A program made the position numbers and the translations under genes. Of a stretch of 64,000 nt of DNA, positions 32,269-38,583 are shown in pieces. The stretch comes from Porticoccaceae bacterium (GTDB lineage Bacteria > Pseudomonadota > Gammaproteobacteria > Pseudomonadales > Porticoccaceae), in the NCBI GenBank assembly GCA_018654575.1, contig JABILI010000035.1, positions 1-64,000 of the forward strand, written 5' to 3'. The stretch's first letter is position 1; each line of letters opens with the position of its first letter. The notes under the pieces were generated by a model, which saw only the letters and a list, made by a program, of their open reading frames with translations, made no database searches and had not been told where the DNA came from.

Positions 32269-32826
32269 ATGCGAAGGCAATCAGTCTTTGTCACAATATT
32301 GCTAATGTTCTATGCGACACAGGTTTCGTCGGCCAATATTGCTTGGGTTTGTCAACGAGAGCCAGGAGATAAAATTATTTGGAGCTGTGTTGCTGATAGT
32401 TCACATTCGACTGGTCCTAAAGCGGTTCCCAAAGAGCCAGAAGTAATTTTAGAGGAGCCTTTATCGGAAACTCGTTTTGGAGAGGCAGGTCAAGATTACC
32501 CACCCCCATCTAAGCTACCAGCAAGAAATAGCGCCTTATCAGTATGGTTGGACAATATCCCTAGGCAGAATCACCTTATTCAATTTGGTGCTTTTCAGAG
32601 TTTGGCTAATGCTACCTTGCTGGTAGAGAGTGCCCTTTTAAGCCAAGATCTGAGAATTATTCCCTTGCTGTCTAAAGGGACGGTTACCTATGTTGTGATC
32701 AGTGAGAGATCCTTTATACGCAAGGATGGTCTGGCGGTGGCAGAGAGTTTTTTTGACAATAACCTTAACATTAGTTTTTGGCTGCGCACTCCGCAGTCAT
32801 TAGCTAACCCCGTTATTCTTAATTAA
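32269..32826 (+). CDS. Unrecognised exported protein with a SPOR-like C-terminal domain
   Basis: The 185-residue protein has a clear signal peptide (SVFVTILLMFYATQVSSA), a short segment with two cysteines (WVCQREPGDKIIWSCV), a Pro-rich linker, and a C-terminal region that looks like a SPOR fold: LIQFGAFQSLANATLLVESALL ... KGTVTYVVISERSFIRKDGLAVA. SPOR domains bind denuded glycan strands in septal peptidoglycan. No other domain is visible. It precedes an unrecognised membrane protein on the same strand by about 50 bases. Export is well supported; the SPOR assignment is moderate. Confidence 0.55.
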   Translation: MRRQSVFVTILLMFYATQVSSANIAWVCQREPGDKIIWSCVADSSHSTGPKAVPKEPEVILEEPLSETRFGEAGQDYPPPSKLPARNSALSVWLDNIPRQNHLIQFGAFQSLANATLLVESALLSQDLRIIPLLSKGTVTYVVISERSFIRKDGLAVAESFFDNNLNISFWLRTPQSLANPVILN

Positions 32827-32877
32827 ATCGTCGTAAGCCAATACCTTCAATATTGTGTAAAAAATACGGAGCTGAGA

Positions 32878-33726
32878 ATGACATCTACTTACCATTTCAA
32901 GACAGCGATGCTATACAACGCTTTTAAATACACTGTTTATGCGTTGCTAATGTTCAACATAGTTTTGTTTTTTCAAGAAGAGCTACTGGCCACTGAACAA
33001 ACTTTTAGCCAGGGCATTAATTTGGTTGATGTTATTCAAGGTTTCGCTGCCACCATTGATACGGCTGCCTGGGTTTTATTGTTGCTGTTATTCGAACTGG
33101 AAACCTCAGTTTTAGACGATGACACATTGCGTAGAACCAATGTAAAAGTGACCTTTATTGGCCTGCGAATATTTAGCTATGGCTTTGTTGGCTATGCGTT
33201 TTATGGTTATTTCAGTAAAATGTTGCTCACTTACAATATCTCTCCCTTTGTTGTTGACGATCTTTGCGCCATGGTCGGGCAAGGCTACGCCGGTATATTC
33301 ACTCTAGATGAATACCCGCTGCTAGATACAGATAGCTGCGCAGTTCTGGCAGATCAGACGCTCTTTAAACTTAATGGTCAGCAGATATTGGGTAACACTT
33401 CTGACTGGGTTGATATCCAATGGTTGGCTTGGTTGGATGTGATTAACTCGGCAACCTGGGTGGCTGTCGTGGTGATTTTGGAAGTGGATGTCTGGCTACA
33501 GCTGCGCGGGCGCTTGCAGGGTGGCCTTGTCTCGGCAAGCAGGATAATCAAGATACTTCTATACAGCATATTATTTTTCGCAGCAGCTTACTGGGGCCTG
33601 CTGGGCGACTTCCTTGATTTTTGGGATGCTTTTATGTGGCTGGTGGCCTTTGTATTTGTTGAGATGAATTTATTTCAGTGGCAGGTAGAAACGAGTGAAG
33701 TGATCGCTGAAGACGCTGTTAATTAG
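32878..33726 (+). CDS. Unrecognised polytopic membrane protein
   Basis: The 282-residue protein has about six hydrophobic segments, including YTVYALLMFNIVLFF, AAWVLLLLLFELETSVL, LRIFSYGFVGYAFYGYF, WVAVVVILEVDVWLQL, IIKILLYSILFFAAAYWGLL and FMWLVAFVFVEMNLF. Acidic residues recur inside or at the edges of helices (FELETS, ILEVDVW, FVEMNLF), which is unusual and repeated three times. A loop between helices 3 and 4 holds two cysteines (DDLCAMVG, DSCAVLAD). The pattern of Glu-bearing helices flanked by Trp suggests an internal repeat. I recognise no family. It converges with the thioesterase gene. Confidence 0.5.
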   Translation: MTSTYHFKTAMLYNAFKYTVYALLMFNIVLFFQEELLATEQTFSQGINLVDVIQGFAATIDTAAWVLLLLLFELETSVLDDDTLRRTNVKVTFIGLRIFSYGFVGYAFYGYFSKMLLTYNISPFVVDDLCAMVGQGYAGIFTLDEYPLLDTDSCAVLADQTLFKLNGQQILGNTSDWVDIQWLAWLDVINSATWVAVVVILEVDVWLQLRGRLQGGLVSASRIIKILLYSILFFAAAYWGLLGDFLDFWDAFMWLVAFVFVEMNLFQWQVETSEVIAEDAVN

Positions 33727-34182: not shown

Positions 34183-35847
34183 CTAGGTTTTCAGTCTTTT
34201 GTGCTTAACTCTCGTGGGTTGCGCGTCTCCGCCTTTACGTTTAACAAAATCTTCGTGGTACTCGCTGTAACATCCTTCGAAAAGTACCACTTCGCTATTG
34301 TCTTCATAAGCCAAAGTATGGGTCGCAATGCGGTCTAAAAACCAACGATCATGTGAAATAACCAGGACACAACCTGGGAAAGACAAAATTGCTTCTTCTA
34401 GCGCGCGCAAGGTTTCAATATCAAGATCATTTGATGGCTCATCCAAAAGCAAAACGTTAGCGCCTTGTTTTAGGGTGTTAGCTAGATGCAAACGGCCCCG
34501 TTCACCGCCGGATAATTGGCCAACACGCTTTTGTTGATCGGTGCCTCTGAAATTAAAGCGACCAGCATAGGCTCTCGAAGAAACTTCATAGTTACCAATT
34601 TTTAAAATATCGTGCCCGCCTGATATAGCCTCCCACACGGTGTGACTATTATCTAGCGAATCCCTATTCTGTTCTACGTAGGCGACTTTTACTGATTCTC
34701 CTAGGGTGATAGAGCCGCTATCTGGCTGCTCAGTACCAGCAATCATTCTAAATAAGGTTGATTTACCTGCGCCATTGCCACCAATAATACCGACGACAGC
34801 GCCTTTAGGGATCGATAAAGATAGTTGATCAATTAGCAGTTCTTGACCATATCCTTTACTGACCTTATCCAGGACAATAACCTTGTCACCCAGACGTTCG
34901 CCTGGAGCGATATAAATTTCGTTGGTTTCATTGCGTGCTTGAAATTCTTGTGAGTTCAGTTCGTCAAATCGTGCGATTCGTGCTTTATTCTTCGCCTGCC
35001 TCCCTTTTGGGTTTTGTCTAACCCACTCTAATTCTTGCTTGATCGCCTTTTGACGTGAAACCTCTTGCTTTGACTCTGTCTGTAAACGTCGATTCTTACC
35101 TTCCAGCCAAGCCGAATAATTACCTTCGTAGGGAATCCCGTGGCCACGGTCAAGCTCCAAAATCCAGCCTGCCACATTATCTAAAAAGTACCGATCGTGC
35201 GTTACAGCAACTACAGTGCCGGCATATTCCTCTAAAAACTTTTCCAACCAAAACACCGACTCTGCATCCAGGTGGTTGGTCGGCTCATCAAGCAACAACA
35301 TATCAGGACGAGAAAGCAAAAGCCTGCAGAGCGCAACTCTTCGTTTTTCACCACCTGAAAGAGAGGTAATATCGGCATCCCAAGGGGGTAGACGCAAGGC
35401 ATCTGCGGCTATGTCAAGGAAGTGATCTAGGTTGTGTGCGTCCCAAGATTCAATGATTGCCTCCAATTCACCCTGTTTTTTGGCCAAATCGTCAAAATTA
35501 GCATTCGGTTCTGCATAATCTAAGTAGACCTGATCTAGGTCTTTTAGGGCGTCAACGGCTTCTCGTATACCGTCTTCGACATTACCACGAACGTCTTTCT
35601 CAGGGTCGAGGATAGGCTCTTGGGCTAAATAACCAATTTTAATACCCGGCATGGGCCTTGCTTCACCTTGTATCTCAGTGTCGAGCGCCGCCATTATTTT
35701 TAGTAAGGTCGATTTCCCTGAGCCATTAAGGCCTAATACACCTATTTTAGCGCCCGGAAAGAAGGATAAAGAAATATCTTTAAGAATTTCTCGCTTGGGC
35801 GGAACGATTTTGCTCACGCGATTCATTGTAAAAACGTATTGTGCCAT
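34183..35847 (-). CDS. ettA: Energy-dependent translational throttle protein EttA (ABC-F)
   Basis: EttA binds the ribosomal E-site and gates the first peptide bond according to the ATP/ADP ratio. The 554 residues match EttA length and have two ABC domains (GLNGSGKSTLLK; GGNGAGKSTLFR), both with signatures (LSGGEKRRVALCRLLLSRP; LSGGERGRLHLANTLKQG) and DEPTNHLD / DEPSNDLD Walker B. The arm region and the P-site tRNA-interaction linker with EWVRQNPKGRQAKNKARI are typical of EttA. Confidence 0.96.
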   Translation of the reverse strand: MAQYVFTMNRVSKIVPPKREILKDISLSFFPGAKIGVLGLNGSGKSTLLKIMAALDTEIQGEARPMPGIKIGYLAQEPILDPEKDVRGNVEDGIREAVDALKDLDQVYLDYAEPNANFDDLAKKQGELEAIIESWDAHNLDHFLDIAADALRLPPWDADITSLSGGEKRRVALCRLLLSRPDMLLLDEPTNHLDAESVFWLEKFLEEYAGTVVAVTHDRYFLDNVAGWILELDRGHGIPYEGNYSAWLEGKNRRLQTESKQEVSRQKAIKQELEWVRQNPKGRQAKNKARIARFDELNSQEFQARNETNEIYIAPGERLGDKVIVLDKVSKGYGQELLIDQLSLSIPKGAVVGIIGGNGAGKSTLFRMIAGTEQPDSGSITLGESVKVAYVEQNRDSLDNSHTVWEAISGGHDILKIGNYEVSSRAYAGRFNFRGTDQQKRVGQLSGGERGRLHLANTLKQGANVLLLDEPSNDLDIETLRALEEAILSFPGCVLVISHDRWFLDRIATHTLAYEDNSEVVLFEGCYSEYHEDFVKRKGGDAQPTRVKHKRLKT

Positions 35848-36127
35848 GGGATTTTATTTGACTCATAGTAGGAGGTTAGAGCCTAACAGCAAGGCATAAC
35901 CAGTTAAAGCGATTACCCTATATTCTAACGGAAATGGGGCCATCTGAGAATCAGATCTTACAAAAAAGCGCCAATAAATTGCTAAAAAATATGTGAATAT
36001 GGATAGAAAATAGCAGTTTACAGGGTTTTATTTCTTGCGCAACGTGATATCTTCTATCTGTTTGCTGGTATTCACGCTACGCAATCGGAGTTTAATTTTA
36101 ATTAATATAAATGAAGGGGTAATAAAA

Positions 36128-36337
36128 ATGGATAAATTAACAGCTGTAATAGCTCAATTAACTAGCCTTGCGATGTCTCTGATTGTTCTGGGTGTGGCTC
36201 TTGGTATTGTGTTTGGCAGTGGTACGCCATTCGTCGGAGGAGTTCTCGACAATATTCTTGGATTTGTCAATACTCTCGGTGATGCAGGTTTAGTTGGACT
36301 GCTAGTTGCTGGGTATCTAATGGCAAGTATGGACTAG
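36128..36337 (+). CDS. Small hydrophobic protein A (GG-AG family, 69 aa)
   Basis: The protein is nearly all hydrophobic: one helix (LAMSLIVLGVALGIVFG), a core GTPFVGGVLDNILGFVNTL, then GDAGLVGLLVAGYLMASMD. It has no charged signal-peptide-like start and no lipobox. The ATG at 36128 has AAGGGG about nine bases upstream; the track ORF (36035) is an artefactual extension. The core PFxGGxxDNxxG-x6-AGL is shared with the next small gene. No function is recognised. A strong intrinsic terminator follows 23 bases after the stop, which suggests a short, possibly abundant mRNA. Confidence 0.7.
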   Translation: MDKLTAVIAQLTSLAMSLIVLGVALGIVFGSGTPFVGGVLDNILGFVNTLGDAGLVGLLVAGYLMASMD

Positions 36338-36359
36338 AGTTTTTAGTTATTAAGTGAAG

Positions 36360-36387
36360 GGGGACTCATATAGAGTCCCCTTTTTTT
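36360..36387 (+). terminator. Intrinsic terminator after small protein A
   Basis: GGGGACTC-ATATA-GAGTCCCC is a perfect 8-bp GC-rich stem followed by TTTTTTT. It lies between genes A and B, and gene B starts only 29 bases beyond it, so B may depend on read-through. Confidence 0.92.
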
Positions 36388-36415
36388 CACTAAAGTGATT
36401 AAATAGGATGCCACC

Positions 36416-36643
36416 ATGAATAAATTTTTTAAGAAATTAACGAAGCAGCTCTGGCAAGCGGTTGAAATCCTAGCAGCGATTCTAGCGATTGGGTTACTTG
36501 TCTCTGGTCTCTTTGGGCCCGATGTACCATTTTTTGGAGGCATTACCGACAATGCAAAGGGCGTTATCGACTCGATAGGTTCAGCAGGGCTAGGCGTGAT
36601 TGTAGCCATATTGATTTTAAAGGATATTTGGAAACGACAATAA
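36416..36643 (+). CDS. Small hydrophobic protein B (GG-AG family, 75 aa)
   Basis: This is a paralogue of protein A with a basic amphipathic lead (MNKFFKKLTKQLWQ) before the first helix (ILAAILAIGLLVSGLFG), then DVPFFGGITDNAKGVIDSIG and SAGLGVIVAILILKDIWKRQ. Both ends are basic, so both termini probably face the cytoplasm. The core aligns with A as PF-[VF]-GG-x2-DN-x2-G-x6-AGL. AGGA lies eight bases upstream of the ATG. It has almost no promoter room behind terminator A. Confidence 0.72.
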   Translation: MNKFFKKLTKQLWQAVEILAAILAIGLLVSGLFGPDVPFFGGITDNAKGVIDSIGSAGLGVIVAILILKDIWKRQ

Positions 36644-36646
36644 TTG

Positions 36647-36670
36647 AGGTATCTGAAAAGATGCCTTTTC
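36647..36670 (+). terminator. Intrinsic terminator after small protein B
   Basis: AGGTATCT-GAAA-AGATGCCT forms an 8-bp stem with one G-U pair and a GAAA tetraloop, followed by TTTC. It begins four bases after the stop of gene B. The stem is weaker than that after gene A. Confidence 0.72.
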
Positions 36671-36958
36671 TGCTTAAAGCACAATCCTCTCTGAGTTCTA
36701 GTTAACTCAGCATCTATATTTTGTCTAAAGGTTACTGTCATTACTAATGGTTTAAGATAATTAGACCTGGCTCAACCTCTGGCTATCGCAAAAATAATTT
36801 CCCAACAACCTTTTAAGGTTGCCAAACGCCATTTTAAATTCGAGCTGAAAAGCTTTATTCCTTGCAATTATCATGTTATGTTTTTCGGGTGGCTTTACTT
36901 GCAAAGTGACTTTTTAGAACTAATATAAGATTACAACGATAAAATAAGGGGTACTACA
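36671..36958. other. AT-rich leader region before small protein C
   Basis: No credible ORF is present. A 7-bp inverted repeat CTGAGTT/AACTCAG (36691-36710, loop six) lacks a T-tract. The 3' end holds a promoter-like pair listed separately and the AAGGGG ribosome-binding site just before the ATG at 36959. Confidence 0.6.
36899..36926 (+). promoter_or_regulatory. Candidate sigma-70 promoter for small protein C
   Basis: TTGCAA, 16 bases, then TAATAT gives an acceptable -35/-10 pair ending about 33 bases before the ATG. It is the best match in the region, though AT-rich DNA gives many such matches. Confidence 0.4.
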
Positions 36959-37276
36959 ATGAGTCCATTAAAAGTGGTAAGACTATTAGTATTAGCAGTA
37001 GCAGTTATCGGTGCCTTTGCGGCAATCCCTGAGATAGGATTAGTGCACGTGATCCTTGGATTGGCGATGGGAATAATGAGTGATCAGGCGGACAAAGATA
37101 ACAGAATGTTCTTTTTAGTGCTTGCCGTCGCACTTACTGCCGTATCTGACGCAGCTGGAGACCTTCCGGTCATCGGCGGATATATCAGCGCGATTATGGG
37201 TAACCTTAGTGTAATGGTTAATGCCGGCGCTCTGGGCATAGTAATGATGGTGGTTAAGGATCGTGTTACTGAGTGA
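36959..37276 (+). CDS. Small hydrophobic protein C (GG-AG family, 105 aa)
   Basis: This is a longer, more divergent relative of A and B. It has a first hydrophobic half (VVRLLVLAVAVIGAFAAIPEIGLVHVILGLAMGIM), a polar hinge SDQADKDNR, a second hydrophobic helix (MFFLVLAVALTAVSDAAG), and then the shared core DLPVIGGYISAIMGNLSVMVNAGALGIVMMVVKDR. The core aligns to A and B as P-x-[IV]-GG-x4-[IN]-x-G-x6-AG-x2-G. The ribosome-binding site AAGGGG is well placed. Function unknown; relation to A and B is by motif and proximity. Confidence 0.7.
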   Translation: MSPLKVVRLLVLAVAVIGAFAAIPEIGLVHVILGLAMGIMSDQADKDNRMFFLVLAVALTAVSDAAGDLPVIGGYISAIMGNLSVMVNAGALGIVMMVVKDRVTE

Positions 37277-37298
37277 TAAATAGTCAGCCCTAAACGAA

Positions 37299-37327
37299 AG
37301 GCCCGACTAATAGTCGGGCCTTTTTTT
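37299..37327 (+). terminator. Intrinsic terminator after small protein C, bidirectional
   Basis: AGGCCCGACTA and TAGTCGGGCCT flank one base, and in practice a small loop opens within CTAATAG. TTTTTTT follows on the plus strand; TTTCGTTTA follows on the minus strand, so it may also stop transcription from the convergent saccharopine-dehydrogenase-like gene. Confidence 0.9.
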
Positions 37328-37353
37328 ATGTGTATTTAGGCTGATTTAATCTG

Positions 37354-38583
37354 CTACTCAACCACAAAGGTCATGCCCGCATGCAAGGTGAGGCGGTCTA
37401 TGAGCTTGTCTCCCATTGCCGTAGCTGGTGTCCAAAAACCACCTATTTTTTCTTCCTCAGTGAAATCAAACGCCAAAGACAAACCTGCCTGAGCCAGCAT
37501 TTTTGCTGTGCAGCCATAGCCAGGGTCTCTATCGCCGGTTACCTTTACCTGTAATGTTTCTCCCTTAATGTTTTTTCCTAGCAAGCTGACATCAAAGTAT
37601 CCGGCTAGTTGGGCTTCTGGACTGGGCCCCTCACCTGGTTTAGGTAGCACAAAGCGCTGCATCAATTTACGTATCGGTGAAACCACAACGCTGAATGCGA
37701 AAAAACCAAGACCAAGAGTCAAGCCTAACGCGGAAAGCCGACCCTTGAGGCCACTACCAGAGACCATTTGTTCTCGATACATAAAGTTCTCACCATAGGA
37801 CTGACCGAGCAACATATTAGAGCGCAACACGACCCGCGCATTGATCGCTTCCATAATAAAGGGTGCGACCCATCGTTGTATGTCTTGGTCGAAAAATGGA
37901 CCTTTAATACTGATTTGAGAATGCTTAAGATCGGGGTTCTCTGGGCAGAGGGCGTAGGGATTATTCATTTCTTTGCGCAGAGTTGGGTCCTTCATGGCCG
38001 CTTTTACCGCCTCAATCATGCTTGCGAGGGTGCCTCCGGATGCTCCGCCCTTCATGGCGTTAACGGAAAGTTTTACATCATCAAAAAATAAACCAAAACG
38101 TTGCTTGGCCTTTTGCTGCAAAAAATGTACGCCTAGATCGGAGGGAATTGAGTCAAATCCACAGCAGCTGACAAGTCGCGCACCAGACTGTTTTGCCGAT
38201 TCAGCATATTTAATAATCATTTTCTTTATCCAATAGGCTTCACCACAGAGATCACAGTAGTCTGTGCCATTTTCTGCACAGGCTTTAACTAGGGGTTCGC
38301 CATAGAGAGCATAGGGCCCTACCGTAGTGACAGCGACGCGAGTGGATTGGCACATAGTGGCTAGGGCCTCTCCGTCGGCTGCATCGGCAATAATCATGGG
38401 TAGATCTATGCCCACAGAGCCAAGCGATTCTTTTAGTCGCTGGAGTTTTGATGAAGATCGACCGGCAATAGCCCAGCGCACGTCTTTATTAACACCAACA
38501 TGCTCAACTAAATAGTGAGAGAGTATCTGTCCAACAAAGCTACTAGCGCCGTAAATAATTAGATCAAACGATTTGGTCATCAT
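37354..38583 (-). CDS. Saccharopine dehydrogenase-like NAD(P)-binding protein (trans-acting enoyl reductase type)
   Basis: The 409-residue protein has an N-terminal Rossmann domain (FDLIIYGASSFVGQILSHYL, AGRSSSKLQRLKESL) and the block LVSCCGFDSIPSDLGVHFLQ...MKGGASGGTLAS, typical of the family that includes mycobacterial trans-acting enoyl reductase and eukaryotic SCCPDH. A hydrophobic segment near residue 275 (LSALGLTLGLGFFAFSVVVSP) suggests membrane association. The substrate is probably a lipid or acyl chain, by family only. It converges with small protein C. Confidence 0.82.
   Translation of the reverse strand: MMTKSFDLIIYGASSFVGQILSHYLVEHVGVNKDVRWAIAGRSSSKLQRLKESLGSVGIDLPMIIADAADGEALATMCQSTRVAVTTVGPYALYGEPLVKACAENGTDYCDLCGEAYWIKKMIIKYAESAKQSGARLVSCCGFDSIPSDLGVHFLQQKAKQRFGLFFDDVKLSVNAMKGGASGGTLASMIEAVKAAMKDPTLRKEMNNPYALCPENPDLKHSQISIKGPFFDQDIQRWVAPFIMEAINARVVLRSNMLLGQSYGENFMYREQMVSGSGLKGRLSALGLTLGLGFFAFSVVVSPIRKLMQRFVLPKPGEGPSPEAQLAGYFDVSLLGKNIKGETLQVKVTGDRDPGYGCTAKMLAQAGLSLAFDFTEEEKIGGFWTPATAMGDKLIDRLTLHAGMTFVVE

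Follow-up and report, generated by a model that had tools for sequence, protein, structure and literature searches.

A conserved gene pair for small membrane proteins in SAR86 and SAR92 bacteria, one gene of which has relatives in phages

Class II holins (S21 type) resemble the small proteins A and B described here in length (65–95 residues), in their two helices with a presumed N-in/C-in arrangement, in their presence in phages and in one gene context adjacent to a lysozyme; the size and the N-in/C-in two-helix topology of the class are comparable to those presumed for A. They differ from A and B in that the latter are core cellular genes in SAR86, carry early-type promoters in phages and match no holin family significantly. 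Pilin-like proteins of ICE/T4SS type (DUF2976/TIGR03745 and NF045849) are alike in length and two-helix make-up and give weak scores with A and B, but these scores lie below the cut-offs and no secretion genes were noticed nearby. T4 Imm, a small protein that a T4-like phage places early in the inner membrane, may be comparable to phage A; no sequence kinship was detected, however, and the host homologues of A come paired. In purple bacteria the ratio of light-harvesting I to reaction centre depends in part on segmental mRNA stability in the puf operon (pufBA–hairpin–pufLM; PMC6238624). The likeness of this operon to A–B lies in small membrane proteins encoded together and in an intercistronic hairpin that favours the upstream genes, as is proposed for A, whereas A and B have neither the conserved pigment His nor sequence kinship, and their hairpin stands between A and B themselves.

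The window, a stretch of 64 000 nucleotides, comes from a genome of the SAR92 clade (HTCC2207 group, Porticoccaceae). Three ORFs of 69, 75 and 105 codons had been noted in it and were confirmed; they are termed A, B and C (Table 1). Codon comparison across relatives gave dN/dS values among the closest pairs of 0.02–0.28 for A, 0.06–0.11 for B and 0.05–0.17 for C; all three are therefore real genes, and their conservation by purifying selection within the genus SAR92 goes far beyond chance. A 132-residue ORF antisense to B (36343–36741) was taken to be a shadow of B. The preliminary description had credited each gene with a good ribosome-binding site and its own terminator. The first point holds for A and C, in which AAGGGG lies 7–8 nt before the ATG, and not for B, which has AGGA only; the second holds for C, while the hairpin after B is weak and the strong hairpin after A is better seen as a conserved element between A and B. 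Both the ORFs and the hairpins are conserved in relatives. Two relatives carry a 152-residue ORF, GAF-like by eye (L067, 1406–1864; L068, 1611–2069), which is absent from the window (32826–32878).

Table 1. Features of the A–B–C locus, in coordinates of the window.
Feature	Coordinates	Strand	Basis
Flank: ettA-type ABC-F ATPase	34183..35847	-	Named by eye; synteny
RBS of A, AAGGGG	36114..36119	+	Sequence
Gene A, 69 aa, two-helix membrane protein (PFVGG...LGDAGLVGLLVAG)	36128..36337	+	Conservation, purifying selection
A/B intercistronic hairpin, 8-bp stem GGGGACTC/GAGTCCCC, T7 tail	36360..36387	+	z -5.0; conserved position, control gaps, SAR86 covariation
Weak RBS of B, AGGA	36405..36408	+	Sequence
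Gene B, 75 aa, A paralogue (LFGPDVPFFGG), positive N- and C-termini	36416..36643	+	Profile comparison, dN/dS
Hairpin 3' of B, weak terminator, poor T-run	36646..36667	+	z -3.6
RBS of C, AAGGGG	36946..36951	+	Sequence
Gene C, 105 aa, separate membrane-protein family	36959..37276	+	22/49 congeners, constant flanks
Intrinsic terminator of C	37296..37328	+	Strong hairpin at 37296..37324, z -5.7
Flank: saccharopine dehydrogenase-like protein	37354..38583	-	PF03435, E 8e-15

By profile comparison A and B are paralogues, as had been proposed (hhalign E = 3.5e-10; cross-matches in genome searches at E of about 1e-5 to 1e-7). The ORFs had been placed outside any recognised operon. This was corrected: a profile scan gave 63 loci over three classes in which B comes next after A in the same orientation, with a gap of 38–132 nt (median 55), and the two form a fixed unit of their own with A first. 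Strong B-type matches were obtained in 17 of the 49 SAR92 congeners, 15 of which also have an A-type gene; in G006 and G049, which have B without A, B lies at the contig edge and the position of A would be cut off. The pair has two main settings in the SAR92 genus, namely the interval between ettA and C and the interval between the crtY-blh-idi retinal cluster and rubrerythrin (PF15461, PF02915). It lies 3' of crtY-blh-idi in L073, L074, L075 and L076, with the rubrerythrin gene next in three of the four. A link of A–B with proteorhodopsin was rejected because adjacency to blh-idi is confined to some SAR92 genomes and the SAR86, betaproteobacterial and alphaproteobacterial loci lie elsewhere.

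Searches of A and B against Pfam, NCBIfam, PHROGs and PDB sequences and with Foldseek returned nothing significant, and a literature search on the pair found no description. On these comparisons A–B is an undescribed family, as had been suspected; the pair is conserved, encodes a membrane module of a new kind and has relatives of one of its two members in phages. Three SAR92 genomes hold a further paralogue, unpaired and some 85 residues long, with an NxLxxxxTLGDAGFxGL core (L084, 5011–5280; L085, 1052–1306; L086, 5180–5434), and a 183-residue ORF in G319 (L101, 5884–6435) has an A/B-type hairpin at its N-terminus followed by a long Lys/Thr-rich tail. The 365-residue ORFs matched by A/B in G009 and G013 encode a many-helix transporter-like protein and were discarded as not related.

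A hairpin can be folded at the same place in every distinct A–B gap (n = 29). Values of z below -2 were obtained for 25 of these gaps (24 on repeat) compared with eight of 33 control gaps (Mann–Whitney p = 8e-8), the controls being gaps of matching length range between other genes of like orientation in the same loci. The stem sequences vary from lineage to lineage. When 11 SAR86 gaps are aligned, 95.8% of the cells pair, and eight of the 11 pairs have compensatory changes on both sides. The covariation score of the SAR86 hairpin was reached by no shuffle, the shuffles ignoring relatedness, and slid structures scored far lower. T-runs follow the hairpin in SAR92, where it is terminator-like; their lack in the Alphaproteobacteria, the Betaproteobacteria and much of SAR86 is consistent with a role of the hairpin in mRNA processing or stability. 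By analogy with the puf operon, with which A–B shares a conserved hairpin between cistrons, this element suggests that the cell produces more A than B. The SAR92 hairpin could also be a plain terminator with B transcribed from its own promoter, which counts against the explanation favoured below.

Hydropathy indicates two helices of about 17–20 residues each in A and B. The N- and C-termini of B are mostly positive and the loops mostly negative or neutral; B is therefore predicted by the positive-inside rule to be N-in/C-in. The termini of A carry little net charge. An AF2 model of A places helices at residues 2–32, 34–50 and 52–68 with moderate confidence (pLDDT 75, pTM 0.38); it is silent on oligomers. 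Foldseek with this model gave no PDB match and nothing significant among viral models. A and B are likely to be small oligomerising membrane proteins, in agreement with the preliminary description.

Genomes sampled from 45 other genera of the order yielded no match. A class-wide search recovered pairs in SAR86-type genomes and in G311, where a diverged pair adjoins zapA/5-FCL-type genes, and scanning GTDB genomes with a pattern brought up 64 loci in SAR92, many SAR86, Rhizobiales and other Alphaproteobacteria, Gallionellales, Burkholderiaceae and Comamonadaceae. In the SAR86 order A–B was found in 126 of 151 genomes and 21 of 22 genera, nearly always with two matches per genome, and in 37 of the 40 genomes of at least 90% completeness; most SAR86 loci read have the arrangement pnp-A-B-ychF. 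A–B is thus a near-universal part of SAR86. The family of one Burkholderiaceae carrier has it in one of 200 genomes; its occurrence outside SAR86 is therefore sporadic, and its function there therefore dispensable.

A-type genes were also found in IMG/VR contigs, and 44 loci were analysed (overlapping sets of 16 and 40). The neighbours of representative viral copies are phage genes: T4-type terminase, portal, PhoH and lysozyme. B was not found in the viral records (the B profile matched only the A gene itself and the B query returned no viral locus), C was not found in viral contigs, and tblastn searches of GenBank phages and of plasmids gave no match. Three contexts recur: A lies within 2.5 kb of a Gcw_chp-like outer-membrane protein gene (14 loci; L178, 5297–5896, and 13 others), directly upstream of a phage lysozyme (seven loci; PF00959, E = 5e-9) or with a small MscS-beta-domain-like ORF (E = 1e-3) on one side and the terminase on the other (14 loci). 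In the phage group L229–L247 the MscS beta-domain-like ORF has 111 residues and stands just 5' of A and the terminase. One phage A shares 58% identity with a SAR86 A. A tree built from few columns places most phage copies beside SAR86 A, and its well-supported branches force at least two changes of phage label; marine viruses would accordingly seem to have acquired A without B more than once, at least twice. Of 16 distinct regions upstream of phage A, eight reach a sigma-70 promoter score of 11–12 out of 12, as do 17 among 166 genes in the neighbourhood (p = 0.0016 for the difference); the strong promoter is missing from most phage A genes beside the Gcw_chp gene. A hairpin/terminator separates A from the lysozyme gene in the lysozyme context. 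Judged from sequence, the promoter and this hairpin/terminator speak for early expression by the host polymerase and against a late role in lysis.

In the explanation that we favour, A and B would jointly build a small assembly in the inner membrane. Each subunit would fold as a hairpin of two helices, its N- and C-termini facing the cytoplasm and its P-F-x-G-G turn lying outside. The two genes would be co-transcribed, and the hairpin would stop or process much of the transcript and so leave A in excess over B. A would then be the main, self-associating and probably oligomeric subunit, and B a minor partner serving as its cap, anchor or regulator. Marine phages have A without B, and roughly one in two of the distinct copies follows a strong promoter of host type; A alone may alter the host inner membrane early in infection. 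The moderate confidence of the AF2 model, the low net charge at the termini of A, the lack of the strong promoter in most phage copies beside Gcw_chp and the dispensability of the pair outside SAR86 weigh against this explanation. This outline (A as major self-associating protein, B as minor partner, an A:B ratio set by the hairpin and an early action of phage A on the host inner membrane) has about an even chance of being right; any narrower function assigned to the pair would be rather unlikely.

Phage A might instead be an early membrane protein that blocks DNA entry by a second phage, in the manner of T4 Imm, the host pair being its origin or its target. The small size and membrane nature of A and the early-type promoter in half of the distinct phage copies agree with such superinfection exclusion, and the T4 early product Spackle, which acts with Imm in this process (PMC7677548), was counted in its favour. 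A has no significant PHROGs match, however, and the conserved host pair would be left unexplained; we consider this reading unlikely. Equally, A might be an aid to transport across the envelope that helps nutrient uptake, paired by phages with Gcw_chp in the outer membrane so that the infected cell is kept going. The Gcw_chp-like gene close to A in 14 phage contigs points this way, as does PhoH beside A in some of these phages, but host Gcw_chp does not track A–B (no co-occurrence signal) and the genome of the window itself has A–B and no Gcw_chp match, which leaves the proposal improbable.

A holin/antiholin pair, with A as a pore-forming two-helix holin and B as its inhibitor, would suit the position of A directly upstream of lysozyme in seven contigs, and A fits class II in size and presumed topology, with two transmembrane helices (hydropathy, AF2) in fewer than 100 residues. 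In that very context, however, A has its own sigma-70 promoter and the hairpin/terminator precedes the lysozyme gene, so that its sequence surroundings indicate neither co-transcription with an endolysin nor late expression. Elsewhere in phages no lysin adjoins A, a recognised holin (phrog_3427) is already present in phage L182, and a lethal protein is unlikely as a SAR86 core gene. The pairing of holin and antiholin is quite improbable, and a plain holin role of A is disfavoured. The holin-like or antimicrobial (bacteriocin) role suggested earlier is not supported: A–B belongs to the SAR86 core, the phage promoters are of early type, and neither an exporter nor an immunity gene was seen nearby.

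A kinship of A/B with conjugation pilins of the VirB2/TraA type finds weak echoes in NF045849 (E = 0.013, 15.2 bits, curated cut-off 40), DUF2976 (E = 0.006, 16.9 bits, curated cut-off 28.2) and TIGR03745 and PRK13852 (two members each matching weakly, best E 0.015–0.02), but it is very unlikely, as the scores are far below the curated cut-offs where these are shown, there is no PDB fold or sequence match, and no T4SS or other secretion genes were noticed beside A–B in the loci read, most neighbours being judged by eye.

C occurs in 22 of the 49 SAR92 congeners. All C loci read have ettA on one side and the saccharopine-dehydrogenase-like gene on the other, whether A–B is present or not; distant relatives are present in two other gammaproteobacterial genomes (L103 and L104). 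An ORF of 141–142 residues, of membrane type (MFKQTLLATV...), lies between C and the saccharopine-dehydrogenase-like gene in C loci without A–B (L077, 5576–6001; L078, 4227–4652; L079, 5835–6260; L081, 4651–5079). C had been grouped with A and B in a cluster of three through a shared core. Profile–profile comparison gave P = 0.002–0.004 at a probability of 8–12%, and the A profile missed C, which came in at rank 80 with E = 18. In the reverse search A/B stood near the top of the non-C ORFs, with scores like those of unrelated membrane ORFs. The likeness is one-sided and at noise level, and C is treated as a gene separate from an A–B pair; its AF2 model (pLDDT 51) was too poor for use. That A, B and C make up one three-part system is highly improbable: they are adjacent in several SAR92 genomes and the C profile ranks A/B as just described, but A–B also stands away from C (L072–L076), C occurs without A–B (L077–L081) and the A profile does not recover C.

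Phages that keep A and drop B offer a direct handle on which partner acts. SAR86 is among the most abundant lineages of the surface ocean and has strongly reduced genomes; the near-universal A–B pair is therefore likely to matter for its physiology. We tentatively put forward, as a possibility that falls somewhat short of an even chance, that A–B would be a hairpin-tuned two-subunit inner-membrane machine of the SAR86 core, the major subunit of which marine phages may have captured more than once to control the host membrane; it would then represent a new membrane system shared by host and phage.
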